Below are positions 294-53,500 of a stretch of DNA of 64,000 nt, piece by piece. Made by a program: the position numbers and the translations under genes. Below the pieces are notes generated by a model. It searched no databases. It worked only from the letters and a program-made list of their open reading frames with translations, and had not been told where the DNA came from. Source of the DNA: Mactra quadrangularis (Eukaryota > Mollusca > Bivalvia > Venerida > Mactridae); the NCBI GenBank assembly GCA_025267735.1, contig CM046299.1, positions 32,874,887 through 32,938,886 on the forward strand. The letters run 5' to 3'. The number at the start of each line of letters is the position of its first letter. Within the stretch, counting starts at the first letter, position 1.

Positions 294-311
294 ATTGAAC
301 TGTTGTGTACG

Positions 312-943
312 TGTAACCTGACTGTTATTGGTGGTGATTATGCAGCTTGAACTTAAGCTGCTGGCAGTGAGAGGTCCGTAATCTCGGGATCGAGTCCAAG
401 TCAGGAAACATTCACGCAAGTCAAATAATCTAAACTAATAATTAAGACAAAGTCCACTCTTCACATTATGGGTACTTTATTTAAAAATTACAACTCAAAT
501 CCAATGTTCAAAATATTCATAAATAGCTCACTGAAAGATCCTATAGATATCTTTAAGCATTTAATTCAAAGCTTTCAAAAATAACGAAAAATGAAAATAT
601 ATCTTGTGAGTTCTATAAAAATCACGTACTAGAAATACGTCTTGATTAGTCAAAGCCAAAGTAAAAAGTGTTCTTAGAACTTGTAGCCGAAACGCGCTTT
701 TGGAATGTATTTTCAAAACGAGGCTGGATGAACTTGTGATGTATTTAACCTGTCCAAAACGTGTAACCATAAAAGGGTTTGGCCTGTGCTCTGGCACTAG
801 TGAAGTTATGATCTTTAACCTCTATAGTAAATTCAGTGAACTATTCGTTACAATGTATAATTCATAAACATAGCAAGGTGTAAATACAGTGAATACAGAT
901 AAACGCCGTAGTGTTTTGTACCGGCCGAAGTCTAATATGTATA
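312..943 (-). repeat. 3' LTR
   Basis: Direct repeat of 10654-11285. It begins TGTAACCTGACTG on the plus strand, so on the element strand it ends in CA. The two copies differ at the G/C of GAGAGGTCCG versus GAGAGCTCCG and at one C/T near base 554. The outer end follows the TACG target duplication. The exact inner end is uncertain by one base. Confidence 0.93.
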
Positions 944-944
944 T

Positions 945-956
945 CTCCACCCACTT
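945..956 (-). promoter_or_regulatory. polypurine tract next to the 3' LTR
   Basis: On the minus strand the sequence AAGTGGGTGGAG stops directly at the LTR edge. A purine run in this position primes plus-strand DNA synthesis in LTR elements. The role is inferred from position and composition. Confidence 0.7.
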
Positions 957-1325
957 ATTTAAAAAAAAATTAAGTATAATACCCAATAATATGTTTTTTA
1001 TTTTAATTTTTTTTTTCATTCCGTACAAAACACTTGATGAATATATGTATATCGAAAAAGATAACTACATTTTAAACATGAAACAAACATGATAACAATT
1101 TAATGATAGTAATGTTTTGAAAATTGTGTATTATAAAATTAATCAACACGTCTATAAAGCTATATAGCACATCTAAAGTAAAATTATGATAAAGGCACAT
1201 CTAAAAATTTATAACACGTCTAATAAAAATACAAAAGTCACATCTAAAAAAAAATGATTGCTCAAATATCCATGTGTTTTTGAACTTTAAGCAATATTTT
1301 TTGAATGCTGATAATTTTGTTAATT
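957..1325 (-). other. AT-rich 3' noncoding part of the retroelement
   Basis: No ORF is supported here. The decamer CACATCTAAA or close variants recur four times between about 1165 and 1255, separated by A-rich spacers. No known element matches this that I can name. Confidence 0.5.
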
Positions 1326-1883
1326 TCACTTTTTAATTTGTTTGGCGATAAGTTGATTAATATGCTTGTTTGATTTATTTAAAAAGAAAGTTAATTTTTT
1401 CTGTTTTATTGTTTTAGGTAACGGCGTCGTTATTAGAAAGGTATGAAAATAAATTTGAATTAAATCTTGGTCTATATTATAAAAATTTATAGATTTTAAC
1501 AGATTAATTTTGTTGAAATAATTTGTGGAATTTGATATTCTGTAATACAGTTGCCGTTGTAAAATTTCTATATCAAAAAACATGGCAATATCTAAAATAA
1601 AATCAATTGGAATGTTTTCTTCCAGGCATTTGATCAATTCATCGCCTAAATCTATAAAATCCTCATCAAAGGTGCAAAATTTGTGTACAAAATTAAATAA
1701 AAATTTGGTGGCCGTGTCGGTTTTATACGGGCCTTGATAAACCATGATGTTACTGTTTAATGGCTTCACTGTTAATGGGTAAACCTGGTTAGACAGGTGA
1801 TTAAATTCTGCCATTGCCCGAAAATACGATGAATACTTGAGCAACCTCCTGCGTTGTACAACTGTGATTGTAAATGACTCCAT
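1326..1883 (-). CDS. BTB/POZ-like accessory ORF downstream of env
   Basis: A 185-codon frame starts at an ATG giving MESFTITVV; upstream codons are open but start only from TTG. The N-terminal part has the BTB pattern: a short strand pair, then LLKYSSYFRAM, matching the conserved Leu...Ser-x-Tyr-Phe-x-x-Met of BTB domains. A helical IPIDFILDIAMFFDIEIL segment follows at about residues 103-120, where BTB proteins carry their last helices. The rest is helical, Lys/Asn-rich and could be a BACK-like remnant. It lies inside the element, after env and before the polypurine tract, on the coding strand. BTB domains often bridge substrates to Cullin-3 ligases; that role here is inference. An unrelated alpha-helical protein is possible. 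Confidence 0.5.
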   Translation of the reverse strand: MESFTITVVQRRRLLKYSSYFRAMAEFNHLSNQVYPLTVKPLNSNIMVYQGPYKTDTATKFLFNFVHKFCTFDEDFIDLGDELIKCLEENIPIDFILDIAMFFDIEILQRQLYYRISNSTNYFNKINLLKSINFYNIDQDLIQIYFHTFLITTPLPKTIKQKKLTFFLNKSNKHINQLIAKQIKK

Positions 1884-2686
1884 CTTAATAACTTTGAATA
1901 TAATAATAACGTTTATAATTTTTATCAATATCAATATATATATTGTCGATGAGTGTCACTTAGAATCTCTATTTATGATAGCAATATGTACACCAGGAAT
2001 TAATAGATTTGTACAACGCAGTATCTACATAAATTATACATTACATAATAATAACTACTAGTAAAGTAAAGTAAAGTATAAATAAAAAGTCTCAATATTA
2101 TAATTAACATATTTATCTTGAGTGTCACATGTTTTACAACAATTATCTTATTATATTAGTAATAAAGACAATTTTCATGTAAATTATATCAATTAGACAT
2201 AATAGTAAAATATTAGTTGAAAAAAGTTGAAAAATAGAAATAAAATACAATTGAACAATTTAATTCAGTAGAAATACTGTATCAGGTAACACATAGAGAA
2301 AAATATACACTATACATTTTGTATTTTGAAAACAACACAATCATAAAATACATATTTCTAAACTGTATCTGAGTTCTAAGTTTTAAATAATATGCAGTAA
2401 ATAAACAAAAATTGAAATATACTATATAATATGTTTTCATCCAATCAACATGATATCTCTATAAGATGTACATTGACTTACACATATTTTAAATGTTATA
2501 AAATACAATAATAATGTTTAAATGATATGAAATACAATAATAATCAAAGTGAACAACAATGTCACCTTTAACATAAAATAGGGCAACAATAAAAATTAAA
2601 ATGTATATACATTAAATTGAATAATATAACAAAAGAGTTGTAGCGTCAATACACACTTCATTGTTAACTTTATACTCTATTTTTGT
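1884..2686 (-). other. AT-rich noncoding spacer between env and the BTB-like ORF
   Basis: About 800 bases with very high AT content, many AATAAT runs and no supported ORF. It may hold a splice acceptor for the downstream ORF, but I could not choose one. Confidence 0.5.
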
Positions 2687-3817
2687 TTATTCAAAATGTG
2701 ATATTTTCATTCCATTGTGAACTATTTCTAGTTTTATGAAGTAGGTAGTTTTAAGCATTTTCTTCATTCTAAGCCATTGCATTAAGCCTAAACGGATAGA
2801 TGATGGAATTTCCAGTTCCACATTTGTTAATTTATTCTTTATTTTGACCTCAGAAGCATCTATAATCAATCTTGGAAATATCTTTCCAACAATACCATCT
2901 ACAAAAATAGAACGATGGTTTGTGATATTCCATTCGACTGGGCAGGTAGGTATTTGCAATAATGTTGTATCTAAGCAATTAATTCCATTTGACAGATGTA
3001 GGTTTAAATAGTTATTGATACTATTGTTTTTCTTGCTTATTTTACTCATGACATAAATAGCAATGAATAAGTTTAATATAGCAATGCCTAAAATAATATT
3101 ATCATATTGCAGATCATTTTTAAGTGAACTAAGAAATGAATCATACGGACTTTGAGTGGTAGAAGTTACGTATTTTAGTTCAAAAGCACTTGCCTGTCTC
3201 ATTATTGATGTTGCCATTAAAAGTAAACTGATCTTTCTGTATATGAAATAGATACATACAGAATTTAAGATTGTGATAATTATACTACCTATACTTATCA
3301 GTTTATACAGGATTGAATATGAATCTGACCCTAAATTTTCATCATAATAAGATTCTGCTAGGTTGGCATAAACTTTTGAATTTGTCTTAGCTTTCTCCGC
3401 TAAATGTTCTAACGAAATTTCTATATGTTTTGTTTTGGCTAATATTTCTCTTGATTTGTGATGGTACATTTGATATTGGGGCAATGTTATGTTATCCGGA
3501 TGAATTCTGCTCATATTATTGACTAATTGCGTTAAAATACTATCATTGAAAAAGTACTTTATGTACGGTAGATTGATCGGATGAACTGTACCTGTGTTGT
3601 TTGACGTTTCACTATCACAGTTTGCGAAATATATGTCTGTGATATGAAGTTCGGTTTTTAATTGACAGCCACATGGTACCTTGACTAAGCATAATTTACA
3701 ACCTTCAATCGTTGTACTGTTGTCAGTACATTCCATTGTTAGGTTTGCTTGTCGTATGACTAAAAACTTATCATTCGAGAGACGTCTCAATTCTGGTTGC
3801 AATGCACCTTGAATCAT
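2687..3817 (-). pseudogene. env: env-like glycoprotein, C-terminal part
   Basis: A 376-codon frame that continues the upstream env ORF after a -1 offset; the same frame is open back to about 3862. It has a Cys-rich ectodomain portion with several Asn-x-Ser/Thr sites and a coiled region (KHIEISLEHLAEKAK). One hydrophobic segment lies at about residues 171-193 and a second at 240-258, followed by about 115 residues. Two membrane segments are unusual for a simple class I fusion protein and suggest a hairpin anchor or re-entrant region. It was probably one protein with the ORF at 3838-5004. As read, the frame is interrupted. Confidence 0.7.
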
Positions 3818-3837
3818 CTTGTGATTACATAATTCAT

Positions 3838-5004
3838 TTATTTTCGAAATATTCTCATTTTATATAGTTCCATCAGGCAACTGGCTTTATCCTTAGTGTT
3901 GAAGACAATATCTTCATTACACAGCATAAAATTTGCATAACGTACACATTTCTTTAAAGAATGATCATTTGCAGCTGCATAAGATTGATCTTCATGATTT
4001 ATTATTATATAACCCGGGGTGTTTATTAAAATACTGGCATCAGTATTATTGAAATCATTGTTTAAAGGAATTGGAAATAGGTTAATATTATAAACCTGAA
4101 ATTTTCCTTTATGTACGATAGGCAAGTGTATGCTTACATAAATGTTTCGATTATGGCGCCCATATATAAACTTTGCATGTTGATAATAAAAAGCCGCATT
4201 ATCTGAAATTAATTGATATGTATCATATTTATCAGATAAAATTCTAGCAACGTTATTTAATACTAATTGCAATCGAAATGCCGGTATTATGAACGTTGAT
4301 AATTTGCCTGAATTAAGCATTTGGATCCCTTTCAACAAATTATTTAAATTCGACCTTATTTGTGCGAATTTCTCATTGTACAACAACATAGACTTTTCTA
4401 TGACTTCGTGCCTATTATTTTGTGACCTCATGTCATTCAAAATATTACTTATTTCTCTATCTTCATTATGAACAAATTGTTCGAACATTTTTAACTCCTC
4501 ATTTACATGACTCATAAAGCTTGATAAGCCGTCTTCTGATTGACTAAAATCAGTAGTAATGGTATTAACGATTTTTGTTAATTTATTAACATGATTTCGT
4601 AATACACTAAGTTGAGAAGTAGTGGCCACTCCAAATAATGTGGACCCTAAATCTCCTATAAAACCTAAGATCGGCCCGTCTCTTTTTGATATTCCATCAA
4701 AAGTTATTTTTGGAATAATTCCATCCAATATTTGAAACAATAATTTTGATTCAATTTCTAAGTGATTTTTAATTGTTTGTATTTCTAATGTCAAAATACA
4801 ACCCAATTGATCTTTGCATTTAGGAATGTCCTTTACAAAGCTCTTTTCATCCGGTAATTTAAATTCAACCGTGTGTATCCATTCATTAACGTAATTGTAC
4901 CAATTGGTAGGTTCTGCGAACTGTATACCTTGGTTTATTCTTAATACATCTTGAGCATCTGTACCCCTCAACATCAAACTAATTATTAATATTATGATAG
5001 CCAT
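3838..5004 (-). pseudogene. env: env-like fusion glycoprotein, N-terminal part (baculovirus F-like)
   Basis: A 388-codon frame from ATG with a signal peptide (hydrophobic residues 2-13, then RGTDAQ). A dibasic Lys-Arg site at about residue 107 is followed by a Gly/hydrophobic stretch, GPILGFIGDLGSTLFG, then heptad-like helices (about 130-220). This layout of cleavage site, fusion peptide and coiled coil is that of baculovirus F and errantivirus env proteins. It stops at 3838-3840 and the remainder is read in another frame, with the switch confined to about 3838-3862. A splice-acceptor-like sequence sits just before the ATG, so expression from a spliced RNA is likely. Confidence 0.75.
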
Positions 5005-5009
5005 CTTAC

Positions 5010-5022
5010 CTACAAAAAAAAA
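5010..5022 (-). promoter_or_regulatory. splice-acceptor-like site before env ATG
   Basis: On the minus strand a nine-T run is followed by GTAG, and env begins five bases later (GTAAG then ATG). A pyrimidine tract plus TAG directly ahead of env fits the known expression of gypsy-type env from a spliced subgenomic RNA. No donor was assigned. Confidence 0.5.
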
Positions 5023-5030
5023 TACAGAAT

Positions 5031-5189
5031 TTACCTTCTTTTCGGTTTTCTAATTCGTTTTTGAGTTTTATTAATGTAGTATTGCCTAATTACTGCCTCA
5101 CTTAAATCATATTCTGGAATCCATGAATTCTTATATCTTTTGTTAGCCCATTGTACTAGATAATGTTTTACATTGTTTTCAATTTTCAT
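5031..5189 (-). CDS. chromodomain ORF overlapping the pol stop
   Basis: A 52-codon frame whose ATG shares bases with the pol TGA (ATGA overlap), one frame back from pol. Residues 9-38 carry the chromodomain pattern: HYLVQW, then WIPEYDL after nine residues, then an Ile-Arg-Gln-Tyr helix. A basic tail KRIRKPKRR follows. Chromodomains at the integrase C-terminus of Ty3 elements (chromoviruses) direct insertion to modified chromatin. Here the domain is not in frame with integrase. It could be made by -1 shifting, by stop-start reinitiation, or be an artefact of a lost base. Confidence 0.72.
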   Translation of the reverse strand: MKIENNVKHYLVQWANKRYKNSWIPEYDLSEAVIRQYYINKTQKRIRKPKRR

Positions 5190-8100
5190 TTTATAAGTTT
5201 TTTCACCCTATACCATTTTTTATTATTGTTATTTTGTGATTGATCTTGGTCTTGGTTTATTGATTCGTTTTCGTTTTTATCGTCCTTTTCTTTCTTATCT
5301 GATTGTACATTCTGTTCTGGTACTAATTGGTGGTTAAAATTTTGATCATTTGTGATTATCCGATAATCTTCTGGATCATAATATCTTCTTAGGCGATTGA
5401 TATTTACTGGTGCCTGAATTTCTTTGTTGTTGGAACTATTTCTTAATACATATGTGTTATTTGGTAAAATTTTTGTAATATAGTACTTGATGTCTGAGAA
5501 TTTTTTATAAAGTTTTCTACATGCATTAACAGGAACTTTATTTTGTTTTAATAGAACTATATCTCCTAGTTTAAAGGTTCTGGGTTTACAATGTTTATCA
5601 TAATGTTTTTTCATTTTGTTTTGAGTTTGTTTTAAATTTTCTCTTGTAATATCCCAAATAATCTTTAATCTATCGGCCAATTCTCTTGCGTAAAATTCTG
5701 GCTTTGTTTGACTGTCTTCATTAATTTCAATTGATTTAATAGGTTGATTAATGTTTTTGCCGAATACTATGTAGTAAGGTGAGTATTGTGTTGTATCTGG
5801 GCAAACAACGCTATTACACGCTAATTGAACTGAGGATAATTTATTTGGCCAGTCTTTTTCATTGGTCAGCGAAGTTCGTAGAACTGTAAGTAAGCTAGAA
5901 TGAATTCGTTCTACTTGACCGTTGCTCATTGGATGATAACTGCTTGTTCTTAACCTTTTAATATTGAACGCTTTATATAACTTGTCCATAATGCCGCTGA
6001 GAAAATTTTTGCCTCTATCTGAAACAATTTGTTTTGGTGCTCCAAATATTGAAAATACTGAATGATATAGCTTTTCTGCGACTTCTTCCGCATTTTGTGA
6101 TTTTAACGGTAAAAATATAACAAATTTTGAAAACGCACAAATGATACTTAAGACATATTTATATCCTAAGCTTTCTTTGCCCACTGTTACTATGTCAATG
6201 TGTAAGTGTTCAAACGGACTATTAGGCAATTCCATGTGTTGTAGTGGTGCGGGTTTAAAGGTATAGTCTCTTTTATTAACTTGACAAATTTCGCATGATT
6301 TGACATAATCTTTAATTTGTTGAAACATTTTTGGAAAATAATAATGTAATCTGATTGTCCAAAATAATTTTTCATACCCGAAATGACCTAAATCATTATG
6401 AAAAGCGTGCAGTATGTCGTTTCTTAACACTCGTGGGAGCGCTAATTGCCTTAATTGTCTGTTTTCTTTAGATGCATTTTTGCTTCTAGATTCATAAAAA
6501 TGAAATAAAATGCCATCAATTATTTCGTACTGTTCCGCTGAATAAATAATACTTTTGCCTTTGCTATTGTTTGGTGTTAATTCACCTGTTTCCAAGTACA
6601 TAAATATGTCTTTAAAATCCTCACATTCTCTTTGTAATTGGCCAATATTTACTGGGAGAGTGTGTTTATCTGTTTGAGGAATTACTGGAAGAGTGCGTTC
6701 ACCTGTCTGAGGAATTTTGACCGGGTTATCGGGATCAGATGTTCTTGTATTTGTTTCTACCGATAAACCTGTATTGTTTTGGTTTTGCTTCACCTGGCCT
6801 CTGGTTAGTATATTAATAGTTTTGTATTTACCGTCGGAAACTTTTGACTCGTATAAATATCTACAGTCTGAAAGAATAGTGTCGATATCTTCTGATTGCT
6901 TTTCCGTATGTCTAACTCTACTGATAAAGTCTACGGGGTTATCTTTTCCTCTTTTATATATAATACGGTAATCATAGTTCTCTAATTGTATCATCCACTT
7001 ATACAATCTTAAATTAGTCATTTTTGTCTCATGTAAATATGTTAAACTTTTGTTATCAGTAATTATAAAATTTGGGACATTGACAACAAAGTGATGACAC
7101 TCTCGCAATGCATATATAATTGCTAGTAGTTCAAGTTCGGAACTGCCGTATCTTGATTCATTATTTTTTACAGACCTTCCGCCGTATTGAATAACTCTCA
7201 TATGTTTGTTAGCATCTTGTTGACATAGAATGTATCCTATAGCGATTGAACTAGCGTCTGTATAAATATAGAATGGTTTATTAAATTCCGGTAATGTTAA
7301 AACCGGTTCTGAGGTTAACTCTTGCTTAAGTTTATCAAAGCATTTTTGATGTTCATTTGTCCATTTATAGATTGCGTCTTTTCTTAACAATGCATTCAAT
7401 GGAGCCGTAATTTTTGAATAATTTCTTATGAACTGTCTTAAAAATGCAGTCATGCCTAGAAATCCTTTGAGCGATCTTTGATTATTTGGCGGCGGGAAAT
7501 TTTTAATTATTTGTAATTTCTTTGGATCAATTTGTATTGTATCATTTTCAAAAATCATGCCTAAAAATGATATATTTCTATAGCCAAATTCACATTTTGA
7601 TGCATGTAATTTTAAATTTGCTGTGTGCAAAATTTGAAGAACATTTTTTATATGCATAACGTGGTCCTGAATTGTCTTACTGAAAATTAATATATCATCC
7701 ATATAACTTATTGCATATTTGTAGAGAACTGGTTTTAAAATTCTATTTAAATAAATACACCAGAAGCTAGGGCTATTTCTTAGGCCAAATGCAAGAGTGT
7801 TGTATTCATAGCTTTCTCCGTTACTTAGACAAAATGCTGTAAACGGTTTGCTTTCCTCTGCCAACGGTAAAGTTAAAAATGCACTTTTTATATCTATTTT
7901 ACTGAAAAATATAGGTCTTTTTTCCGCGATTAGATCTTTGATGTCAGATAATTTAGGGAGCTGAAAGTACATTCTTTTAGCAATTTTATTTAAATGTCGA
8001 TAGTCAATAACCAGTCTGTATTCTTGTTTTGTATTATTATGTAATGCCTGTTTCTTGACAAGAAATGCTGGGCTGCTAAATATTGAATTGCTTGGCCTAA

Positions 8101-9142
8101 TAATATTTGCTTTTAACAGTTTATTTATCTCGTCTTCTTGAATTGATCTTAAATTCGGGCTAACAGGGTATGGTCTTGATCTGACGGGCAGTGCGTTTGG
8201 GTCTAATTCTATCGTGCATTCAAAATCTTTTACCTTTCCAATATCTGCATTATTTTTGCTAAAAACTTCTTTGTACTGATTTAAAATATCAAATAAATTT
8301 GAATTAGTTTTAAATTCATCCGAGACATTTAATTTAACCTCTGACTCTGGCTCACAATTTGATTTATTTTGCATCTCAAATTCATATTGGTCCGTATTGC
8401 AGTATTGGTCAATTGGCACAATTGAAGCTAAAACTTCATTTTTTGCTATACGCACCGTTTGATCTGAATCATTATTGAACGGTATGTAATAAATATTACT
8501 TTTGGTTTTTGTTAGTAATATATTATTTACTAACTGACAATCAGATTCTAAGATACATTTATTTGACGATATTTTGGAAGGTATTTTAACCGGAATTTTC
8601 TTTATTGTATTAGGTTGTATTTTAATAACTTTATTTGTTTCTATGGTTTGTTGCCATTGAGGTTGAATTACTGAGACAACTGAATTATTAACTTTGAATT
8701 CTTTTGTTTTAAAATTAATAAATGCATTATATTTTGAAAAAAAGTCCATGCCTATTATTATTGGTTTAATTAAATTGTCAATAACATAAAAATCTACCTC
8801 AAAATATGATTTACCTATTTTTATCGGACATTTGATTAATCCCCTAATTTTATTTGGTTGTCCGTCAACTGCTGTTTTAAATTTAGTTTGTGTAGGAATA
8901 ATAGGGCTATGTCTGAGATCACAATTTTTCAAAAATTCATATTGCACACAATTAATTGAGCTTCCTGTATCTAAAAGAGCATGCGTTTCAATGTCAAAAA
9001 TCTGAATTGGAAGAAGATTTTCTGAAATTTTAGACACACAATGTATTGTATGTCGCTTATTTTTCTTAACATTAATAGTTTTCTTTTTGATATTGGTAGA
9101 GTATTGCTGTCTAACAGTACTGCGTGTATTGACGCCGTGCCT
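5186..9142 (-). CDS. pol: pol polyprotein (protease, RT, RNase H, integrase)
   Basis: The frame is open from directly after the UGA at 9143-9145. Numbering from the GTG codon at 9037, it shows aspartic protease (LLDTGSS, about 21-27, and IIIGMDF near 93), RT with LVIDYR and YMDD (about 445), and an RNase H segment (YTDASS). The integrase zinc-binding region has HNDLGH...CEICQ (about 880-915), and the core has HIDIV, SDRGKNF and GQVERI with D-x35-E spacing. The tail is Asn/Gln/Lys-rich. No ATG sits near the start of this frame, which suggests it is made as a gag-pol product. It ends at the ATGA overlap with the chromodomain ORF. Domain order protease-RT-RNase H-integrase is that of Ty3/gypsy. 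Confidence 0.95.
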   Translation of the reverse strand, partial: RHGVNTRSTVRQQYSTNIKKKTINVKKNKRHTIHCVSKISENLLPIQIFDIETHALLDTGSSINCVQYEFLKNCDLRHSPIIPTQTKFKTAVDGQPNKIRGLIKCPIKIGKSYFEVDFYVIDNLIKPIIIGMDFFSKYNAFINFKTKEFKVNNSVVSVIQPQWQQTIETNKVIKIQPNTIKKIPVKIPSKISSNKCILESDCQLVNNILLTKTKSNIYYIPFNNDSDQTVRIAKNEVLASIVPIDQYCNTDQYEFEMQNKSNCEPESEVKLNVSDEFKTNSNLFDILNQYKEVFSKNNADIGKVKDFECTIELDPNALPVRSRPYPVSPNLRSIQEDEINKLLKANIIRPSNSIFSSPAFLVKKQALHNNTKQEYRLVIDYRHLNKIAKRMYFQLPKLSDIKDLIAEKRPIFFSKIDIKSAFLTLPLAEESKPFTAFCLSNGESYEYNTLAFGLRNSPSFWCIYLNRILKPVLYKYAISYMDDILIFSKTIQDHVMHIKNVLQILHTANLKLHASKCEFGYRNISFLGMIFENDTIQIDPKKLQIIKNFPPPNNQRSLKGFLGMTAFLRQFIRNYSKITAPLNALLRKDAIYKWTNEHQKCFDKLKQELTSEPVLTLPEFNKPFYIYTDASSIAIGYILCQQDANKHMRVIQYGGRSVKNNESRYGSSELELLAIIYALRECHHFVVNVPNFIITDNKSLTYLHETKMTNLRLYKWMIQLENYDYRIIYKRGKDNPVDFISRVRHTEKQSEDIDTILSDCRYLYESKVSDGKYKTINILTRGQVKQNQNNTGLSVETNTRTSDPDNPVKIPQTGERTLPVIPQTDKHTLPVNIGQLQRECEDFKDIFMYLETGELTPNNSKGKSIIYSAEQYEIIDGILFHFYESRSKNASKENRQLRQLALPRVLRNDILHAFHNDLGHFGYEKLFWTIRLHYYFPKMFQQIKDYVKSCEICQVNKRDYTFKPAPLQHMELPNSPFEHLHIDIVTVGKESLGYKYVLSIICAFSKFVIFLPLKSQNAEEVAEKLYHSVFSIFGAPKQIVSDRGKNFLSGIMDKLYKAFNIKRLRTSSYHPMSNGQVERIHSSLLTVLRTSLTNEKDWPNKLSSVQLACNSVVCPDTTQYSPYYIVFGKNINQPIKSIEINEDSQTKPEFYARELADRLKIIWDITRENLKQTQNKMKKHYDKHCKPRTFKLGDIVLLKQNKVPVNACRKLYKKFSDIKYYITKILPNNTYVLRNSSNNKEIQAPVNINRLRRYYDPEDYRIITNDQNFNHQLVPEQNVQSDKKEKDDKNENESINQDQDQSQNNNNKKWYRVKKLIK

Positions 9143-9457
9143 TCATTTTCTTCCCGTAAGGCATTGAGATTTAAAATGTCCAATTTTGCCACACATGTGA
9201 CACGCTTTATTAAAAGCTGGGCATGCCTTGCCAAATTTACAAAAATCTAAACCACATCTTGTACAACCCTGAGATTGACCTAACAATTGAGGGTTAACTG
9301 TATATCGCTTAACCACTCTCGGCTTGCGATAAGCGAAGTTATGATACTGGGATGATTCCTGCTGAGAGGCATCTCTAGTATTATCATACCTGTTTGCTCT
9401 CTCATAATTCTGTGACCTTCGATAAAAATTGCCTTGGCGGTCATTTGATGCAACAGG
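9143..9457 (-). pseudogene. gag: gag nucleocapsid segment in shifted frame
   Basis: This open frame lies -1 relative to the main gag ORF and in the same frame as pol. It contains an Arg/Tyr/Asn-rich basic region, a first Cys-rich cluster (CTRCG...C...CPAF) and a canonical CX2CX4HX4C zinc knuckle beginning CHMCGKIGHF, the RNA-binding motif of nucleocapsid. It ends at TGA 9143-9145. The overlap with the gag ORF (9280-9457) shows where the break must lie. Confidence 0.78.
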
Positions 9458-10575
9458 CTAATTTCTTTGGTATCATTTATTTGGGTTTTCAGGCCTTGCA
9501 TTTCATCAAGTAATTTATCAAATTTGGTCTCCATTACACTAACAGATAAAGCATTTGTAACTTCACATAATTTCAAAAATTTTGATAATTCAGGCAAAGA
9601 TTTTGGTTCTTTCAAAATAACCTGTCTTTTAATCTGGTCATTAAGACCATTAATAATCAAACTGATTAAAATTGACTCCTCTAGTTTTAAATCTGTAGAG
9701 ATTTTCAAAGCTCTAGACATATATTCTTCTGCCGTTTCATTAGGCTTTTGTTTGATAGAAATTAAATTAAAATTTAATTCTTCTTTGTATCGATTTTGAA
9801 GAGCCTGTATTAATGATTTATAATCTGTTTTAATGTCTTGAGACAGATTATCATAATACACTGCGGCTGTGCCATCCAAATAAAAATTTATTATGTCACA
9901 TTTTTGTCTGTCTGTAATGATATTATTTATAACGCAAAATTTCTCAAATTTTGACAAAAATGCCGAAAAACTTTCAAAATCTTTGCCTGTAAAAGGTGAC
10001 AATTTTACAATACGAGAATGCATGTTATGAAATAAAGTGTTAGTAGAAAAAGATGAGTAAGTACCTCTCGTTGTATCTGTACTTGAATCTGTTTTTCTGG
10101 TGTCCTGAAAAAGAATATTGTCTGTCTTTTCACACACTTTTTGTGTATCACAATTCGAAGTTTGTTGATCAACACTATATAACTCGTCTAAGCGTGGATA
10201 AATGTTATTAATGTTACTTGAATTTAGTATTGGGCTTAAATCTGGTTGAAGTCGCACATCATCTTGTTCGGATTGGGTCTTCGTTTGGTAATCATTCGGT
10301 TGAATGATTTTTGTCCCCCTGTCGTCTAGGATTGATTTGTCGTCGGTTTTAACTGGAATCTGAGTGTCATCGTATCTGGGCGGCTGAGATAGCTCTTGGG
10401 TGTAACTATCTTTAGTAGATCGTGAACCATTAGATTGTAGATCAGAGTAAAATTGTTTCCGAAGTTCCTTAATTCTTTTCTTGGAGGTGTTTAATAATTC
10501 CTGTGCCGTCCTTGGCGTGGATGTCGTTGGCACTTGTGAATTTGCTCTCCTATTTCGCAAATAGTACTCTGACAT
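9280..10575 (-). CDS. gag: gag (matrix/capsid-like part)
   Basis: ATG-initiated frame of 431 codons. The first ~190 residues are polar and disordered. From FTGKDFESFSAFLSKFEKF (about 196) a helical capsid-like region follows, with the retrotransposon gag pattern (FYLDGTAAVYYDNL, then LQNRYKEEL and the later IINGLNDQIKRQVIL). Residues after about 375 (from 9457 on) look like out-of-frame read-through, because the nucleocapsid continues in the next frame. It assembles the particle that packages the element RNA. Confidence 0.85.
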   Translation of the reverse strand: MSEYYLRNRRANSQVPTTSTPRTAQELLNTSKKRIKELRKQFYSDLQSNGSRSTKDSYTQELSQPPRYDDTQIPVKTDDKSILDDRGTKIIQPNDYQTKTQSEQDDVRLQPDLSPILNSSNINNIYPRLDELYSVDQQTSNCDTQKVCEKTDNILFQDTRKTDSSTDTTRGTYSSFSTNTLFHNMHSRIVKLSPFTGKDFESFSAFLSKFEKFCVINNIITDRQKCDIINFYLDGTAAVYYDNLSQDIKTDYKSLIQALQNRYKEELNFNLISIKQKPNETAEEYMSRALKISTDLKLEESILISLIINGLNDQIKRQVILKEPKSLPELSKFLKLCEVTNALSVSVMETKFDKLLDEMQGLKTQINDTKEISLLHQMTAKAIFIEGHRIMREQTGMIILEMPLSRNHPSIITSLIASREWLSDIQLTLNC

Positions 10576-10653
10576 AATTTGTCCATATTCTATAACACAT
10601 TTCGAAAGTTTGTGACGAAATATTCAAATTAAAATCGTCGGATTCTCCCCAGC
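10576..10653 (-). promoter_or_regulatory. leader with primer-binding-site candidate
   Basis: On the element strand, two bases after the 5' LTR, TGGGGAGAATCCGACG begins. TGG at this place is expected, since tRNA 3' ends are CCA. I could not match the following bases to a particular tRNA. Confidence 0.45.
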
Positions 10654-11285
10654 TGTAACCTGACTGTTATTGGTGGTGATTATGCAGCTTGAACTTAAGC
10701 TGCTGGCAGTGAGAGCTCCGTAATCTCGGGATCGAGTCCAAGTCAGGAAACATTCACGCAAGTCAAATAATCTAAACTAATAATTAAGACAAAGTCCACT
10801 CTTCACATTATGGGTACTTTATTTAAAAATTACAACTCAAATCCAATGTTCAAAATATTCATAAATAGCTCATTGAAAGATCCTATAGATATCTTTAAGC
10901 ATTTAATTCAAAGCTTTCAAAAATAACGAAAAATGAAAATATATCTTGTGAGTTCTATAAAAATCACGTACTAGAAATACGTCTTGATTAGTCAAAGCCA
11001 AAGTAAAAAGTGTTCTTAGAACTTGTAGCCGAAACGCGCTTTTGGAATGTATTTTCAAAACGAGGCTGGATGAACTTGTGATGTATTTAACCTGTCCAAA
11101 ACGTGTAACCATAAAAGGGTTTGGCCTGTGCTCTGGCACTAGTGAAGTTATGATCTTTAACCTCTATAGTAAATTCAGTGAACTATTCGTTACAATGTAT
11201 AATTCATAAACATAGCAAGGTGTAAATACAGTGAATACAGATAAACGCCGTAGTGTTTTGTACCGGCCGAAGTCTAATATGTATA
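10654..11285 (-). repeat. 5' LTR
   Basis: Direct repeat of 312-943, as the upstream LTR for the minus-strand element. The sequence diverges from the other LTR exactly after TAATATGTATA, and TACG follows, matching the bases left of the other LTR. Confidence 0.93.
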
Positions 11286-11289
11286 TACG

Positions 11290-12054: not shown

Positions 12055-12381
12055 ATGATATTTACCCGGAATGAGGAGCTACATTCTGCTAAACATTTGA
12101 AACGTAAATTAGAACGCAAATGGAGGGAAACAAAACTTTTGATCCATCATCAGATTTACAGAAATCAATGTGCTGTGTATAACAAACTGCTGATTGTAGC
12201 CCGTAAAGACTATTACTCAGACAAAGTTGAAGCTGCTGGCAGAGATAATAAAAGTTTATTCAAAATTGTAAATAATTTGTTAAATGGAGAAAAGCGTGGT
12301 CCTCTTTTACCATCTGGAACCACACCGAAAGACACTGCTCAGAATTTTAGCAAGTTTTTCTCATCAAAATTGAAGGCATAA
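12055..12381 (+). pseudogene. LINE ORF2 linker fragment
   Basis: About 108 codons of the basic linker between endonuclease and RT (HLKRKLERKWRETK, then YYSDKVEAA and FKIVNNLLNG). It ends at a frameshift, and the next frame takes over about 45 bases before 12426. No start codon of its own is expected, because the element is 5' truncated. Confidence 0.75.
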
Positions 12382-12425
12382 GAAATGACATTATAAACAG
12401 TCAAGCTGATACACCCACTGAATCT

Positions 12426-14042
12426 GTGACCGAGCAATTCCAAGACAATAAACTCAAAAGTCTAGCTTGTGCTTCACAAGAAGAAGTAAAGAAAATCATT
12501 GAGAAGTCACCAAATAAATCTTGCGAGTTAGATCCTATTCCAACATGGCTTCTTAAATCATGCTTACCCGAACTCTTGCCTGTAATCACAATCCTAATCA
12601 ATTCATCACTTAACGCTGGGAGTGTACCAAAAGCATTTAAAAGTGCTATTATTAGACCATTGCTGAAAAAGTCAGATTTGGATTCAAACACACTTAAGAA
12701 TTACAGACCGGTTTCAAATCTTCCATTTCTGTCAAAGATTTTAGAAAAAGTTGTCAATGTTAGACTTGAGAACCATCTTAAAGAGAACAATCTGCATGAA
12801 CCTTATCAATCTGCCTATAGAGAATTTCATTCCACGGAAACGGCTCTTCTTAAGGTGCAAAATGACATTCTTCAGTCTTTAGACAATAATTGTGTAACAA
12901 TATTGGTGTTACTAGACCTATCGGCTGCTTTCGACACCATAGACCATCATACATTGTTAAGCAGACTGCATGATCACTATGGTCTTGCTGATGGTGCTCT
13001 AAATTGGATAAAGTCATATCTGAGTGATCGATACCAAACAGTCTGTGTTGGTGGAGAACTTTCTGACCCTGTGCTGATGAAATACAGTGTTCCTCAATGA
13101 TCTGTCTTAGGGCCTAAATATTTCACCATGTACACTAAGCCTGTTGGTGCCATCTGCTTGCAACATGGATTGTTACATCATTTCTATGCTGATGATTCTC
13201 AACTTTACATATCCTTTAAACCAATTGATAATATTTCAAGATCAGAAGCATTAAGTCGTATTGAAAAATGTTTGACTGAAATTATTTCATGGATGAATGC
13301 CAACATGCTGAAATTGAATGCAGACAAGACGGAAGTTATGTTGTTCTCTTCCAAACATAACCGTAAACATGTTGATGACGTGTCCATTAGAGTTGGTGAT
13401 TCCATCATAAACTCTAAAGACTGTATTAGAAATCTTGGTGCTTACTTCACACCCCACATGGATATGGAGAAGCATGTCAATATTGTATGCAGATCTTCTT
13501 ATTATCAGCTAAGAAATATCGGTCGCATAAGAAAGTTTCTTACTTTGGATGCTACAAGGACGTTAGTAAATTCCCTGGTTACATCAAGATTGGACTACTG
13601 CAATGCCCTTCTTGCAAATACTTCAAAGTCAAATCTGAATAAACTTCAACGCCTACAAAATACAGGAGCAAGAATCATTACCAGAACCCGTCGTCATGAC
13701 CATATAACACCAGTGCTCAAGGAACTTCATTGGCTTCCTGTTTGTCAGCGGATCACATACAAGCTCTTGATATATACATATAAAGCACTTAGCAACCAAT
13801 GTCCCATATATATCCAAGACCTAATACATGTCTATAAACCCAACAGAGACCTCCGATCTAGCAATTCATTATCTATTACAGTCCCACGGTCTAGGACAAT
13901 TACTTTTGGTAATCGTAGTTTCAGCCAGGCTGCGCCAAAATTGTGGAATTCGCTTCCAGACTCTGTCAAGTGTGCTCAGTCTCTAAATACTTTTAAGAGA
14001 AAGTTAAAGACTTACCTGTTTGTCAATTACTATGGTCACTAA
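12426..14042 (+). pseudogene. LINE ORF2 reverse transcriptase and C-terminal domain
   Basis: RT blocks in order: IIRPLLKKSDLD, NYRPVSNLPF, LLDLSAAFDTIDH (catalytic Asp), WIKSYLSDR, then an in-frame TGA at 13098-13100 where a Gly codon is expected after VPQ, then VLGPKYF and FYADDSQLY (catalytic Asp pair). The C-terminal part ends with LQNTGARIITRTRRHDHITP...LHWLPVCQRITYKLL, typical of L2/CR1 elements. One premature stop makes this copy defective. Confidence 0.88.
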
Positions 14043-47500: not shown

Positions 47501-50500
47501 TTCCCAATGTTTATTTCAAATGTAATATAGTGTAAAAACAGTTTACAATTGACACATACCGTAGTTTTCACGTAAATTGTAAAATTTCTCCATTCTATTG
47601 GACCAGATGTAAAATTCCCACCTCCTTTGTTTTGTCTTGCCTGGATTTTCACCATCCTAAAAAATGATAATACAATTTAGAAAAAAAATTTGCTTCACAT
47701 AGTATGTATTTGCATGAAGTCAATATAAAACAAATGTCTCGTTCTAAATGGTATGATCAATAATCTAAAGCATGCACAAAAAGTAAACCATCAGACAGAT
47801 CGCACCAAATATTGATCCGAACATTTTAACTACTCGCTTATGACACCATTAGAGCATATGAACAACTACATGTTATTTTTTAATCCATAAGTACTTACGT
47901 AGTGATACCAGTATTTCCAGCTTTAAGTTGAAATATTCCAGTAAAATTATCACCAGGTGCTAAACCTTGCTGAGTTATCACTTTTGGTGATTGTACCAAA
48001 TTCTTGTCATCATCAATCCTTACATCAATATCTTGCGTAGTTGGCATTATATTTGTTACAGTAAATGTTATATTAAATGTTGTATGTACTTCAATCATTG
48101 TTCCTGTAATGCATTATGCTATATATAAGCGTCTGAAAGCTGGCACTAAGTACATGTACACATACATAAGTAAACTAGAATTTAAACAAAATACACATGT
48201 ACTCGTACAAGGAACTTATCAGGCAGTTTGATCAAACCTTTAGACGTATATATGATTACTTTAATAAATGATTGCTCCCAAATGACTGACTGAATCCTTT
48301 GACTGAATGCATTGACCATTACATGTGACCCTGAGTACTATTGGTGCATACATGAACAGAGAAAATTGATATATTTTGGCAATGGTTTATCACTCTTCCA
48401 TCGCACGTATGCTTCAAATGTTGGTTTTGTATAGGAAGGTGACCTGTATGGGAATCTGATTCATTAGTCGTGAAAACATACCACTAAAAACATTTGTCTA
48501 TCAGGCAGATGTGATATCTGCCTGTCAGACGAAGAATGTTTTTAGTGGTATTTAACCTTTAGCTCATGTGAAGTAGTTTTTCATCCTAAATATATCAACA
48601 GAAATAACAACATTATAAATGCATATACCTGTATATGGTGGTACAAACAGTTCTAATGTCACTGGGATTACTTCTTTGTCATCTAAACGCTTGTACATAT
48701 GACTAGAGTTATCTTTTCCTTGTATTCCAATCATAATTGGCTACAAAAATTTATTACGTCATTATTATAGGCATAATAAAATCCATTAAGTCATTAACTG
48801 CGCATTAATTGAAGCGCAGTTCATGATCAAGTTATTAAAATTTACTCCTTTAGAGTTCTTATTCTTTCAGGTATGTAGCAGAGAAGATTTTTGTCTGAAT
48901 TGTCCATCTACCTTCTATGACCCACCATCAGTTGCACTATACGGTTTAGTCAACCAAGATAGCGAACAGATCGCAGATGAAAATGTAAACAGATTTTATT
49001 TTCTCGATTCCTTTAACTTTATCCAATTTAATTAGTGTATAATCAGTTGTATTTAACCAGGCATAGTCATTGGTGCATAATGTACATGTACAACACCTAT
49101 TTCCTTGATATCCGCCCAAGAGCTCAAAAATGGTCGATGTATAATTTCAAACAAAGCGAAAAATAAGTGTATAGTCTGATTCTTATTCATTTAAGATTTT
49201 CGGTTGAAATCAATTAAAAGTGTGGCGTCAAAATTATTGTCCGAGTTACTCCGTTTCCTTCTTTGGGGAAAAGCCTCTCTTTGACAAAAACAAACATTTT
49301 ATGAGTGTACACAAAGTGGGTGCAGATAACGGTGTATGGTGAAGTCAAAACGCACACTTTTGAACGGTGTAGTCTCATAAAACTGTACAGTGGAGTCATT
49401 CTGTACATTTCTAAAAGCATGTCGAAGCAAAATTCAAAATCAAAGTATGTTAGCCATAAGTAGTTCTGCATTTTCAGATTACATGTAGTTTTAATTCGTA
49501 ATTGTCTAATAATTTTGTTGTTTTTCAATCTTTGTTTATTTACCGAATAGTTGATATTTCATATATTCATATGTGTGGAAAATTCATAACAACAATTCAT
49601 ACATAGGCACACCATTTTATTAACACCGAAAATACTAGGTGGTCAGGTTAAAGAAGTGACCAGGTAGAGGTTGAAGTTGTTTCACATCGATGCTCAAGTA
49701 AATTACATTATCTTCGTATATTTTCGATAGCAGCTAATGTACAAGAGTGATTTGTGAAGGATGTAAGACATTGCTGGTCATCCGGCTACAAAAAATAAGT
49801 AAACTTTGTACAACAGTTTACTAAATGTTATTTAATACTTCAGAAATAAGTTGCGTGGCGCGCTGCCCCCTGTCCCATTTTGGTCCATTCCTGCCATTTT
49901 TGGGGCTCTAGAATAATTACTACAGTATTGCATGGTACCAAACTAGTTTGTTAAGAATTACTGGTTGGGTTAAAATATTGTATGATACCATTACGCTATA
50001 AGTTAGGGCGTACAGTTTGGGTTCAAGTATTGCATGATAGCATTACACTATAAGTTAGGACGTACAGTTTGGGTTCAAGTATTGCATAATAGCATTACAC
50101 TATAAGTTAGGACGTACAGTTTGGGTTCAAGTATTGCATGATATATGCACCATTACACTATGTTAGGACTCAGCTGTATAAACATGTACGCTAGGATTTA
50201 CTAGATGGGTTAAAGTATTGGATGGTACTATACTACATGTAGTATGTTTAGATATACTGAATATTTGCAAATATTTCAGGGTACCATTCTTGTATGCACA
50301 ATTGCAGTGCTACCGTTCTATCAGTACTGTCAGTACTTTGATGACTGTATTTTTTACACCCCTACTCTTTACTTTTTTAGTTTATTTGATATAGCTAATA
50401 AGTGTTCACTTTTTTTACTTGAATCAATCATTACCACCATAACGTTTGATACATTTGTAATGATGCATGGTATACATGTTACATTTGTAATGATGCATGG

Positions 50501-53500
50501 TATACATGTTACATTTGTAATGATGCATGGTATACACGTTACATTTGTAATGATGCATGGTATACATGTTACATTTGTAATGATGCATGGTATACATGTT
50601 ACATTTGTAATGATGCATGGTATACACGTTACATTTGTAATGATGCATGGTATACATGTTACATTTGTAATGATGCATGGTATACACGTTACATTTGTAA
50701 TGGTGCATGGTATACACGTTACATTTGTAATGGTGCATGGTATACACGTTACATTTGTAATGATGTATGGTATACATGTTACATTTGTAATGATGCATGG
50801 TATACATGTTACATTTGTAATGATGCATGGTATACACGTAACATTTGTAATGATGCATGGTATACATGTTACATTTGTAATGATGTATGGTATACACGTT
50901 ACATTTGTAATGATGCATGGTATACATGTTACATTTGTAATGATGCATGGTATACACGTTACATTTGTAATGGTGCATGGTATACACGTTACATTTGTAA
51001 TGGTGCATGGTATACACGTTACATTTGTAATGATGTATGGTATACATGTTACATTTGTAATGATGCATGGTATACATGTTACATTTGTAATGATGCATGG
51101 TATACACGTAACATTTGTAATGATGCATGGTATACATGTTACATTTGTAATGATGTATGGTATACACGTTACATTTGTAATGATGCATGGTATACATGTT
51201 ACATTTGTAATGATGCATGGTATGCATGTTACATTTGTAATGATGCATGGTATACATGTATTGACGAATTTTAAATCTTTGATGGAATCATAATTACCTC
51301 TGCTGGCATAGTTACATTTGACATTTCAAACACGTCGTGTCCTTTTGAAATAAGCTTATCCATTTTGAGTGGAAATAGTTTATCTTTTGATATTATCATA
51401 CCAAAGTCTGATGAATGAATATAGTTCATACCAGCAACTGTTATCTGTACGTTGTATTGTTTTCCTTAAAGTAGACACATTGGCCAAATAAAATTTGCGT
51501 AAATTGTTGTGAAAGTGCTACAGTCGCATATTTTCATGTGGTTCGTTGATAGTATAAAAATAGGTCCCCTGAACAAACATTAATATTCTAATATTCATAT
51601 CAGCCCAGTTTCCAGGGCGCACTACGAATAAAAAAACTACATGTAAAGAAGTAATATTAATAAAAAACATAAGACAAGTAGGTCACACTTGAATCAAATT
51701 TTGTTCAATCGATCATGAGCATTGGTTTATGGAACTGACGAAGTGGCTAATTTATCTTAAATAAACGAATGATTTTTTTATAAAACAGAATTAAATGATC
51801 TTGAAAGCTTAACCAACATCAAATACAAAGTAGGATTTAATCACATCAGTTTCGGATAATGAGAAGACGATAATGTGAGATTATCTCATTTGCATTGCTG
51901 TATAGTATGTATTGCAAACACAGCGTAGAAAAAAACAAGAAAAGGAAAACGAAATTGATAAATGATTACATAAATAAATGGTGATTTCCTTTTTATTTTG
52001 TTTTGTGGCTTTTCTATGTAACATGCTTGACCAAAATCGATTATTTAGAGTGAAGATACATGACGTTGCGTTTAATACTGGCGTCAATTTGAAAATAATA
52101 AGTCCCTGGACTCAAGATATTCAACTACATTTACAATTTTTATCGCACTTCAATAAATATTATGTCTATAAATCTATGGTGGACTCACCGGTTCTCGCAC
52201 CTCTAAGGACTCAATGAACCATTTCTAATTAATGCAACAATACTTTCAGAAAAATACATTAAAAACGAACCTTTTAATCTATATTCCATTTTTTTATCAT
52301 ATACTTGCTGATATTTTATATTTAAAACAAATCCAAATCCTTTCAGAAAAAACACGACCATTTTCTGAAAACTGTCATGGCGGCTAAAAATAGATGACCT
52401 AATTTCGAACTTCTACCGTATTTGGCTATTTGTGAGGTTATAAATAGCTGTCACATGACTTTATGAGCAGAAGACAGGAATGGCTACCTGCCATGTGCTT
52501 CTTTTGCAATAACATACTTTCAAACAATATTTGATGGATTGTACTGACAGAGCGGAAAAAGGTAATAAGCATTTACTGAAAAATATTCACCATCACGAAA
52601 TATTCATTCTAATTGCCTGTTTCTTGCGCATTATTCACGTTTGACAGTTGTAGTTGCGTCGATTGTTTACTTAACATTTGTGCACACGAGTTAATGACGT
52701 CATACGCAATAACGCAGCAAAGTAAACAACTTTTTTATGAAAGGTTCGAGATCAGATGAGGTCCGAGATCAGGTGTTTGTACGATAAAACAATTTATACT
52801 TTCAGAAAATTATATTATACAGTATAATTCTGTATACATATTTCACAATATTTGAGTAAAAACCTGACTGAACGTCGGAAAATTGCCGGTAAACGTAACA
52901 AAACAAGTAAATTTCGTTTTAAAAACCCAGATAACTGTATGAAGAAAAGTTTTTTTACCAGGAAAGCTAACAATAATCGTGTAACCTAACTATCTTTTAC
53001 TTAAATACAGTTTTATCCAAATATAAATGTACAGTTCGTTTTTTCTCAACTGTCAAAACATGAATAATTTCACGGTGACTTCGTGCTCTTTATTTTACAC
53101 CCATGGTATTGTGATAGTGTGTAAATCAATCGCCGTGAAATTATTCAAACTTTGACAGTTGAGAAAAAATAGACAATAGCTATAGGCAAAAGTATCGGAA
53201 AATACATGTTCGTTGAAAAGGTAAGTCTTTAATCGTTTACAACTTCGATATATTTGGCGCAATAATTAAAATGGCATAATAATTTTTAGTGCTTTGCAAA
53301 AGTTCATTTCTTTAACCTTAGATATATTTTAGAATGAAAATAATTTAGGAAATGGAAAGCGGTGTTAGTCAGGTTTGGTGTGTCTAGCCACGATGTAACG
53401 CACCTACAACATGCCTTAAATAGACTCGACTCAGATAATTTAAAGTTCACTGTTCAATGGATTAAACAAAATAGCAAAATTTCATAATAATCATTAAAAA

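Follow-up and report, generated by a model that had tools for sequence, protein, structure and literature searches.

An env-bearing Ty3/gypsy element of the clam Mactra quadrangularis with a Pol-terminal chromodomain and a 3' accessory gene found as two divergent alleles

Chromatin-targeted retrotransposons and infectious env-bearing elements are, to our knowledge, usually held apart. Insect errantiviruses generate short target duplications, as does the clam element described here. Their integrase is not known to carry a chromodomain; the clam element has one and departs in this from the usual definition of an errantivirus. According to the part of the source available to us (PMC12440569), the genus Errantivirus (gypsy, ZAM and 17.6 of Drosophila) has the same combination of a Ty3-type pol and an F-like env, while the clam element differs by its chromodomain and its accessory gene. 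Env-carrying Ty3/gypsy elements are described as widespread in metazoans (Chary and Hayashi 2025, as cited in PMC13172572 and PMC12859917), and PMC13172572 refers to 289 of them. They too have a Ty3-type pol and env, and the available portions of the two citing accounts mention neither a chromodomain nor a 3' accessory gene. The LTR elements of bdelloid rotifers acquire extra 3' genes (ORF3) of non-env type (Rodriguez et al. 2017, PMC5408684). In the accessible text of that article ORF3 codes either a GDSL esterase or a DEDDy exonuclease, most of the carrier elements have no bona fide env, and none is reported to have a chromodomain; the additional clam gene accompanies env and is of another type.

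The provirus and its copies in the genome

The window analysed is a stretch of 64,000 nucleotides of M. quadrangularis DNA (contig CM046299.1). It contains an element of 10.97 kb on the minus strand with the order gag-pol-env followed by a 3' gene coding 185 amino acids. The 3' LTR (312..943) and the 5' LTR (10654..11285), both delimited by comparison with each other, are identical at 631 of 633 sites, leaving two differences. A 4-bp target-site duplication, TACG, is read in the sequence on the 3' (308..311) and 5' (11286..11289) sides of the element. The putative polypurine tract adjoining the 3' LTR (944..954) is assigned by position and composition, and the putative primer binding site TGGGGAGAATCCGACG, two bases from the LTR (10636..10651), by position. 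These features, together with the order protease-RT-RNase H-integrase seen as retropepsin-RT-RNaseH-H2C2-rve matches, identify a member of Ty3/gypsy (Metaviridae). The protein order, the near-identical LTRs and the location of all genes on one strand had been noticed in a first-pass annotation, and all three are borne out.

In the window copy gag is divided between two frames, an N-terminal part with a Ty3-type capsid (9280..10575; E 2.2e-5 to Pfam Ty3_capsid, short of the cut-off) and a C-terminal part with a CCHC knuckle (9146..9457). It is unsplit in 8 of 8 other copies, compared over roughly 550-650 bases upstream of the gag stop. An in-frame TGA (9143..9145) separates gag from pol (5189..9142), in which Pfam domains delineate retropepsin, RT, RNase H, integrase and the first half of a chromodomain. 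All 9 copies compared here have this TGA, which points to expression of Gag-Pol by stop-codon readthrough.

The env gene of the window copy is split into two overlapping frames (5049-3838 and 3859-2687) that code its N-terminal (3838..5004) and C-terminal (2687..3859) parts, the latter with two hydrophobic stretches discerned by eye. The N-terminal half matches Pfam Baculo_F (E 6.8e-15; 5.3e-15 in a second run), in agreement with the baculovirus-F-like env proposed earlier, and the same profile matches the N parts of the L022 and L034 env. Searched as full env frames of 781 amino acids, L022 and L034 matched nothing in Pfam at 0.01, which is provisionally taken as a filter effect since their N parts alone match. 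When compared to PDB sequences, the env N part retrieved influenza HA2 (E 0.43-0.75) and one fusion glycoprotein (E 8), neither significant.

About ten close copies of this element family are present in the genome. The env N part has nine other full-length matches of at least 95% identity. Regions were fetched around 17 other copies of the accessory gene, and 10 of them have chromodomain and env matches arranged in the same gene order, with frames open in several; the order seen in the window, whose recurrence had been proposed as a check, is found in these other copies of the same genome. In six of the ten, env is one uninterrupted frame of 778-781 codons. Seven other copies have 0-2 differences between their two LTRs, and exact 4-bp duplications flank five. 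The env matches, the open frames and the LTR pairs therefore argue for recent activity. The window copy has three frame breaks (gag, pol end and env) despite its nearly identical LTRs and, because these frames are split, it is either not functional itself or affected by assembly errors at the breaks. It is best explained, with a probability of about 0.8, as a young provirus, recently inserted and now broken in its frames, from a Ty3/gypsy (Metaviridae) family that carries env and is probably bivalve.

The Pol chromodomain and its clade

The first-pass annotation had placed a chromodomain in an ORF of its own at the pol end (5031-5189). The domain is present but forms the C-terminal end of Pol; a frameshift interrupts it in the window copy, where its second half (5031..5207) is out of frame with pol. 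It is continuous with the pol frame in 8 of the 10 copies with chromodomain and env matches. A profile of 12 Pol tails matches chromodomains of the PDB with E-values down to 1.6e-10 and indicates the HP1/Polycomb type. The profile search suggested for this ORF is in this way answered in favour of a chromodomain, the match of the window piece alone being below the Pfam cut-off, like those of L022, L052 and P0001. L051 and L058 gave weak SH3_Tf2-1 matches instead, which correspond to the integrase part.

Upstream sequences were inspected for 20 of 24 distant env matches and a readable pol tail was obtained for 17. All 17 tails, which come from other families, fall in a single integrase clade whose tails are of chromodomain type (15 directly and 2 as near-copies); 11 of the 17 are divergent and were called chromodomain-like by eye only. 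The pairing of env and chromodomain is not peculiar to this element and seems to characterise a whole clade, which has several families in the genome. The set of env, chromodomain and 3' gene that had been considered uncommon is united in one family, but its first two components seem to go together clade-wide.

The clam element shares with chromoviruses a chromodomain at the integrase C-terminus and differs from them by its env. In the phylogeny of RT and integrase, proposed earlier as a check, the best trees put it in a clade separate from chromoviruses of plant type (support 98-99), although a joint clade with chromovirus rows is not rejected (p-AU 0.083). A Mytilus Pol falls in the same clade as the window element, which together with an accessory gene homologue in Mactra antiquata fits the molluscan lineage put forward before. 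No errantivirus was recognised among the best 120 of 512 protein matches listed, and scans of viral contigs and of genome contigs with Pol found no relatives. A search of the literature, in the portions of the sources available, found no account of mollusc elements that combine env with a chromodomain, nor of a BTB accessory gene, and no absence in print is claimed from it.

The 3' accessory gene and its alleles

The window carries allele A of the accessory gene (1326..1883). Its open frame spans 209 codons, a length that no sequence attains when the 1.7-kb region is simulated 2000 times under a first-order Markov model (longest 141), which substantiates the further ORF reported 3' of env. The gene has 51 matches in the genome, fragments included. 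Where defined, its dN/dS is 0.16-0.28 for the window copy against others, and 0.16-0.45 across all defined accessory comparisons listed; judged from these sequences, it is under purifying selection. The window protein gave no match at E 0.1 among 5.8 billion proteins, while a family-alignment search found a sole outside homologue, P0121 of M. antiquata (59% identity, E 6.7e-70). In the searches made it is a family without named relative.

Alleles A and B are 51-55% identical in protein, in element copies that are otherwise mostly 95-99% identical. Along five A-B pairs, identity per alignment window is 92.6-100% from the end of pol through env, stays mostly above 90% in the spacer, is 56-73% in the gene and 94-98% past it. 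Each accessory allele is found with each LTR length class, so that all four combinations occur. Because divergence stops at the two edges of the gene, this pattern is read as a whole-gene cassette that would have been swapped between element lineages by a presumed recombination route. Exchange of the 3' gene between deeply diverged alleles is the most unusual feature of the element and was not in the first-pass annotation.

The BTB signature announced in 1326-1883 received no support from Pfam, PDB-sequence or profile-profile searches. Pfam and PDB sequence searches with the accessory protein gave nothing, and hhalign to four human BTB domains, a small yardstick, gave 0.2% and a score that 60 column shuffles reach on average. 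In Foldseek the window-only model had a best E of 0.094, with no BTB among the best 50 matches listed, and matched ferredoxin-like folds instead. The P0121 model had nothing significant (best E 0.77), with many BTB among the best 50 matches listed. For the low-confidence Mactra-plus-window model, 45 of the 50 listed VIA rows were POZ-fold by title. This hint, with which the second model disagrees, weakly suggests a BTB/POZ-like fold of the accessory N part. The C part of allele B has putative zinc ligands arranged C-x2-C ... H-x2-C ... C-x2-C, and zf-RING_2 matches it below the cut-off (E 0.039 in L013, 0.27 in L016). P0121 retains the RING-type ligand cysteines and histidine, and Pfam gave it no RING match. 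The RING part was sought downstream of the window gene and is absent. Allele B and the M. antiquata protein would hence possess a RING-like zinc module that allele A of the window lacks.

An artefact of assembly or recombination that joined unrelated insertions could account for the env-chromodomain pairing, and the three frame breaks beside nearly identical LTRs would accord with it; such an origin is extremely unlikely, being contradicted already by the 10 of 17 regions that keep the order, several with open frames, and by the same pairing in other families. The accessory gene could also be a chance capture from the host that travels along as a functionless passenger, as its single homologue outside the genome, in another bivalve, and the lack of a known domain in sequence searches might indicate. 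This is very unlikely for a gene whose N part has a dN/dS of about 0.16-0.38 within and between alleles, whose frame is uninterrupted in 10 of its 11 closest full-length matches (window's included) and which is retained in two alleles with saturated synonymous sites. The alleles may alternatively be old paralogues that lay side by side in an ancestral element and were differentially lost, with no exchange between lineages. Locus C13, with A-type and B-type genes in tandem with short LTR bits, and C11, with several accessory fragments within 3 kb, favour such a history. It is rather doubtful, however, as the ten aligned A/B copies each hold one allele at the same position, the flanks are mostly above 90% identical between alleles and the junctions fall at the gene's two edges. 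Exchange of the whole gene is the preferred reading.

As a best guess, itself less likely than not, the product might be regarded as a modulator of a host ubiquitin pathway, built of a POZ-like N part and a RING-like module (allele B and M. antiquata) that a deletion of ~0.3 kb would have removed from allele A. Retroviral regulators sit after env, where this gene lies, and a nucleic-acid-binding regulator (Rev/Tat-like or a silencing suppressor) instead of a ubiquitin-pathway factor is about as likely: the protein has no firm fold and RNA or DNA could be bound by the allele B zinc motif, but most structural matches of the low-confidence Mactra-plus-window model are POZ-type chains.

Predicted life cycle and comparison with known systems

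Transcription would start from the LTR, Gag being made directly and Gag-Pol through readthrough of the conserved in-frame UGA. Reverse transcription would be followed by integration by an integrase ending in the HP1/Polycomb-type chromodomain, which may tether the enzyme to marked chromatin. The baculovirus-F-like Env, by its homology, would permit cell-to-cell entry. The selected accessory protein would be exchanged as a whole-gene cassette via recombination between co-packaged genomes.

Association of env with an integrase chromodomain has already been claimed, as the available text of PMC5408687 attributes a chromodomain to the integrases of gamma- and epsilonretroviruses of vertebrates. 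Their domain is characterised there by a GPY/F motif, while that of the clam Ty3 element is of HP1/Polycomb type by profile. The present data suggest that env and an integrase chromodomain can coexist throughout an animal Ty3 clade, where the chromodomain/env division would then fail. As several families have young copies in this one genome, targeting and infectivity could be studied together, and the exchange of accessory alleles provides a handle on host-element conflict in molluscs.

Lentiviral accessory genes of the Vif/Vpr/Vpx type recruit host ubiquitin ligases. The clam gene is, by analogy, likewise a small selected 3' gene that is possibly ubiquitin-linked; no homology to them was found and its function is a guess. 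Whole-gene allele swapping would suit a viral factor that competes in an arms race against its target in the host. It would be an unlikely parallel if an invertebrate retrovirus lineage with env and an integrase chromodomain had arrived, independently of vertebrate lentiviruses, at a ubiquitin-ligase-type accessory gene of its own, with POZ-like and RING-like parts, and diversified it by swapping whole-gene alleles between otherwise near-identical proviruses.

Structure of the provirus and activity of the family

The window contains a Ty3/gypsy provirus in minus-strand orientation, whose LTRs (5' at 10654-11285, 3' at 312-943) show 2 differences over 633 aligned sites. The provirus is flanked on both sides by the 4-bp duplication TACG. 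The primer site starts two bases past the 5' LTR and a purine tract is found just ahead of the 3' LTR. In Pfam scans gag displays a CCHC knuckle and a sub-threshold match to a Ty3-type capsid, pol codes for retropepsin, RT, RNase H, H2C2 and rve domains, and the amino-terminal part of env matches Baculo_F (E 6.8e-15). The primer binding site (window 10636-10651; L077-L085) varies among closely similar copies (TGGGGAGAATCCGACG, TGGTGTAGAATGCCATG, TGGTGAAGAACCGGACT, TGGTGGAGAATGCCATG and TGGTGGAGAATCCGGGT), as if different tRNAs primed one family. Next to the provirus, on the plus strand (12351-14042), a non-LTR reverse transcriptase was recognised by eye in two neighbouring frames, and the frame survey of the window revealed a long minisatellite (50214-51325) open in several frames of both strands.

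The window copy has gag, the end of pol and env each spread over two frames. Seventeen regions were fetched around other copies of the accessory gene, and in ten of them env as well as the chromodomain is matched (L022-L027, L030-L032, L034). Env is a single open frame of 778-781 codons in six of these ten copies, carries one in-frame stop in three and is decayed in one; the pol frame runs on into the chromodomain in eight. The other seven regions have env parts only (L029, L033) or neither env nor chromodomain (L028, L035-L038). Gag through the knuckle is one frame in 8/8 other copies, as judged from 550-650 bases fetched before the gag stop. Since other copies have open frames, the breaks are particular to the window copy or its assembly. 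An in-frame TGA between gag and pol (window 9143-9145, minus strand) is kept in all nine copies examined, window included, and probably serves readthrough rather than frameshift.

Eight further LTR pairs were sought and seven could be compared, the L013 copy having no 5' LTR in the stretch fetched. The pairs differ at 0, 0, 0, 0, 0, 1 and 2 sites, the last one also showing 9 gap columns. Exact 4-bp duplications surround five of the seven copies (L004, L005, L006, L007 and L014, the latter once the LTR edge is moved by one base), and three of four bases agree in L008 after a one-base shift of the LTR edge. One LTR of L016 adjoins primer-site-like sequence, so L016 has a tandem neighbour and its LTRs may come from different pairs. 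The family was recently active. The L016/L074 provirus, which carries allele B of the accessory gene (C15:43599200-43600600), lies ~41 kb from the allele A copy L005 (C15:43557001) in opposite orientation. Copies L002 (C16:5003801-5007355) and L001 (C4:32928261-32931815) have an internal deletion or inversion upstream of the accessory gene; in the deletion type pol is fused to the spacer and env is gone.

The accessory gene and its two alleles

A search with the accessory gene (1326-1883, minus strand) gave 51 matches, fragments included. Eleven of them, counting the window's own, are full-length with 89-100% identity, and four have 55-56% identity with frames of 303-305 codons. Its open frame is longer than any in 2000 simulations. 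Nei-Gojobori dN/dS is 0.16-0.28 for the window copy against the others where computable and 0.17-0.28 between alleles, despite saturation at synonymous sites. Within allele B it reaches 0.38, and the additional segment of that allele gives 0.20-0.45. These comparisons leave aside L001 and L002, whose proteins are identical, and the interrupted L006 and L012. Among 12 stretches lying downstream in other env families, several of which are near-copies of one another, none has a long element-strand frame of the accessory type; their frames have at most 111 codons save for non-LTR reverse transcriptase pieces in L072.

The protein of allele A, the type present in the window, is 51-55% identical to that of allele B (L013-L016; compared against L013), which is longer by ~95 residues carrying a C-x2-C...CC...H-x2-C...C-x2-C motif. 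Pfam matches of allele B to zf-RING_2 are below cut-off (E 0.039 for L013, 0.27 for L016). Outside this genome a single homologue was found, P0121 of the clam Mactra antiquata. It shares 59% identity with allele B over 99% and carries that motif too, though without a RING match in Pfam. The longer form is therefore probably ancestral, allele A having lost ~0.3 kb.

Five pairs of one A and one B copy were compared in 240-column windows. Identity per window is 92.6-100% from the pol end through env and 82-99%, mostly above 90, in the spacer; it is 56-73% in the accessory gene from ~40 bases before the start codon, 78-82% in the block across the gene end and 94-98% beyond. All four combinations of LTR length class (~633 or ~621 bases) and accessory allele are seen. 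This pattern marks the accessory gene as a cassette exchanged between element lineages, for which template switching between co-packaged genomes would be the natural route. A decayed tandem array with a ~3.3 kb unit (G000:C13:45764000-45775800; L021, L088) has A and B genes adjacent to one another among LTR scraps, with short stretches of the LTR start and of the spacer between the genes, and no env match was found in it. This arrangement fits either an ancestral element with two genes or frequent template jumps. RING-like pieces lie behind A-like genes in the array, suggesting that this part formerly belonged to allele A as well.

Chromodomain and env in other families

Chromo matches of the window piece (E 0.0025), of copy L022 (E 0.00032) and of the other-family locus L052 (E 0.00011) are all below the Pfam cut-off. 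The nearest Pols among the matches listed are P0001 (56% in RT-RNaseH) and P0002 (52%), whose carboxyl-terminal ends feature the same domain, unbroken; the Chromo match of P0001 is weak (E 0.48) and P0002 is listed with PF00385. A profile built from 12 Pol tails (including L022, L045, L049 and L052) matched 77 PDB sequences at E 1 or less, with the chromodomains of cpSRP43, CBX2, CBX8, HP1 and Polycomb reaching E 1.6e-10, and on account of these matches the chromodomain identification is firm for the group.

The genome search with the env amino-terminal part yielded 40 matches. Ten, the window among them, are close and full-length, six are pieces of close copies and 24 are distant (22-30% identity). 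In the DNA retrieved upstream of 20 of these 24, an open pol tail is present in 17 and absent in three (L050, L059, L060). By eye, six of the 17 tails have a plain-looking chromodomain (L045-L049, L052) and 11 a divergent-looking one. A Pfam scan of eight other-family tails matched Chromo only in L052, with sub-threshold SH3_Tf2-1 matches in L051 and L058. In this genome, env and the chromodomain accompany each other.

Fifteen of the 17 loci entered the integrase tree, L042 and L043 being omitted because their tails equal that of L041 in the part compared, and all 15 fall, like the window, into a clade of 39 rows (support 99). The length filter passed 80 of the 120 protein matches listed for this tree and 113 of 120 for the RT tree. 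The clade holds 23 public Pols; the domain is visible by eye in 17 of the 20 whose ends were inspected, the exceptions being P0009 (ambiguous), P0022 (domain end only in the part inspected) and P0028 (truncated).

Relation to chromoviruses and to env-bearing elements

In a 51-row mixture-model tree, whose rows were chosen and groups named after the first tree was seen and which has no errantivirus references among its rows, the 21 rows of the window group are set off by one branch (support 99). The 14 chromovirus rows, so labelled from Pfam tags and plant names, form a separate branch (support 100) with other Ty3 groups in between. Forcing the two together costs 11.1 log units with p-AU 0.083, so the chromodomains may have a common origin.

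Excerpts of PMC2774666 treat the chromodomain and env as two distinct traits and assign the Ty3 integrases that bear a chromodomain to a single branch, the chromoviruses. Passages of PMC12440569 state that several groups gained env, and an eLife paper cited in parts of PMC13172572 and PMC12859917 concerns env-carrying gypsy elements across metazoans; the portions consulted of PMC8905726, PMC11599104 and PMC12992720 hold nothing bearing on this question. Rotifer elements have extra ORFs but no chromodomain, according to an excerpt of PMC5408684. A passage of PMC5408687 states a chromodomain on the integrases of vertebrate gamma- and epsilonretroviruses, which would make the pairing of env and chromodomain less novel as such.
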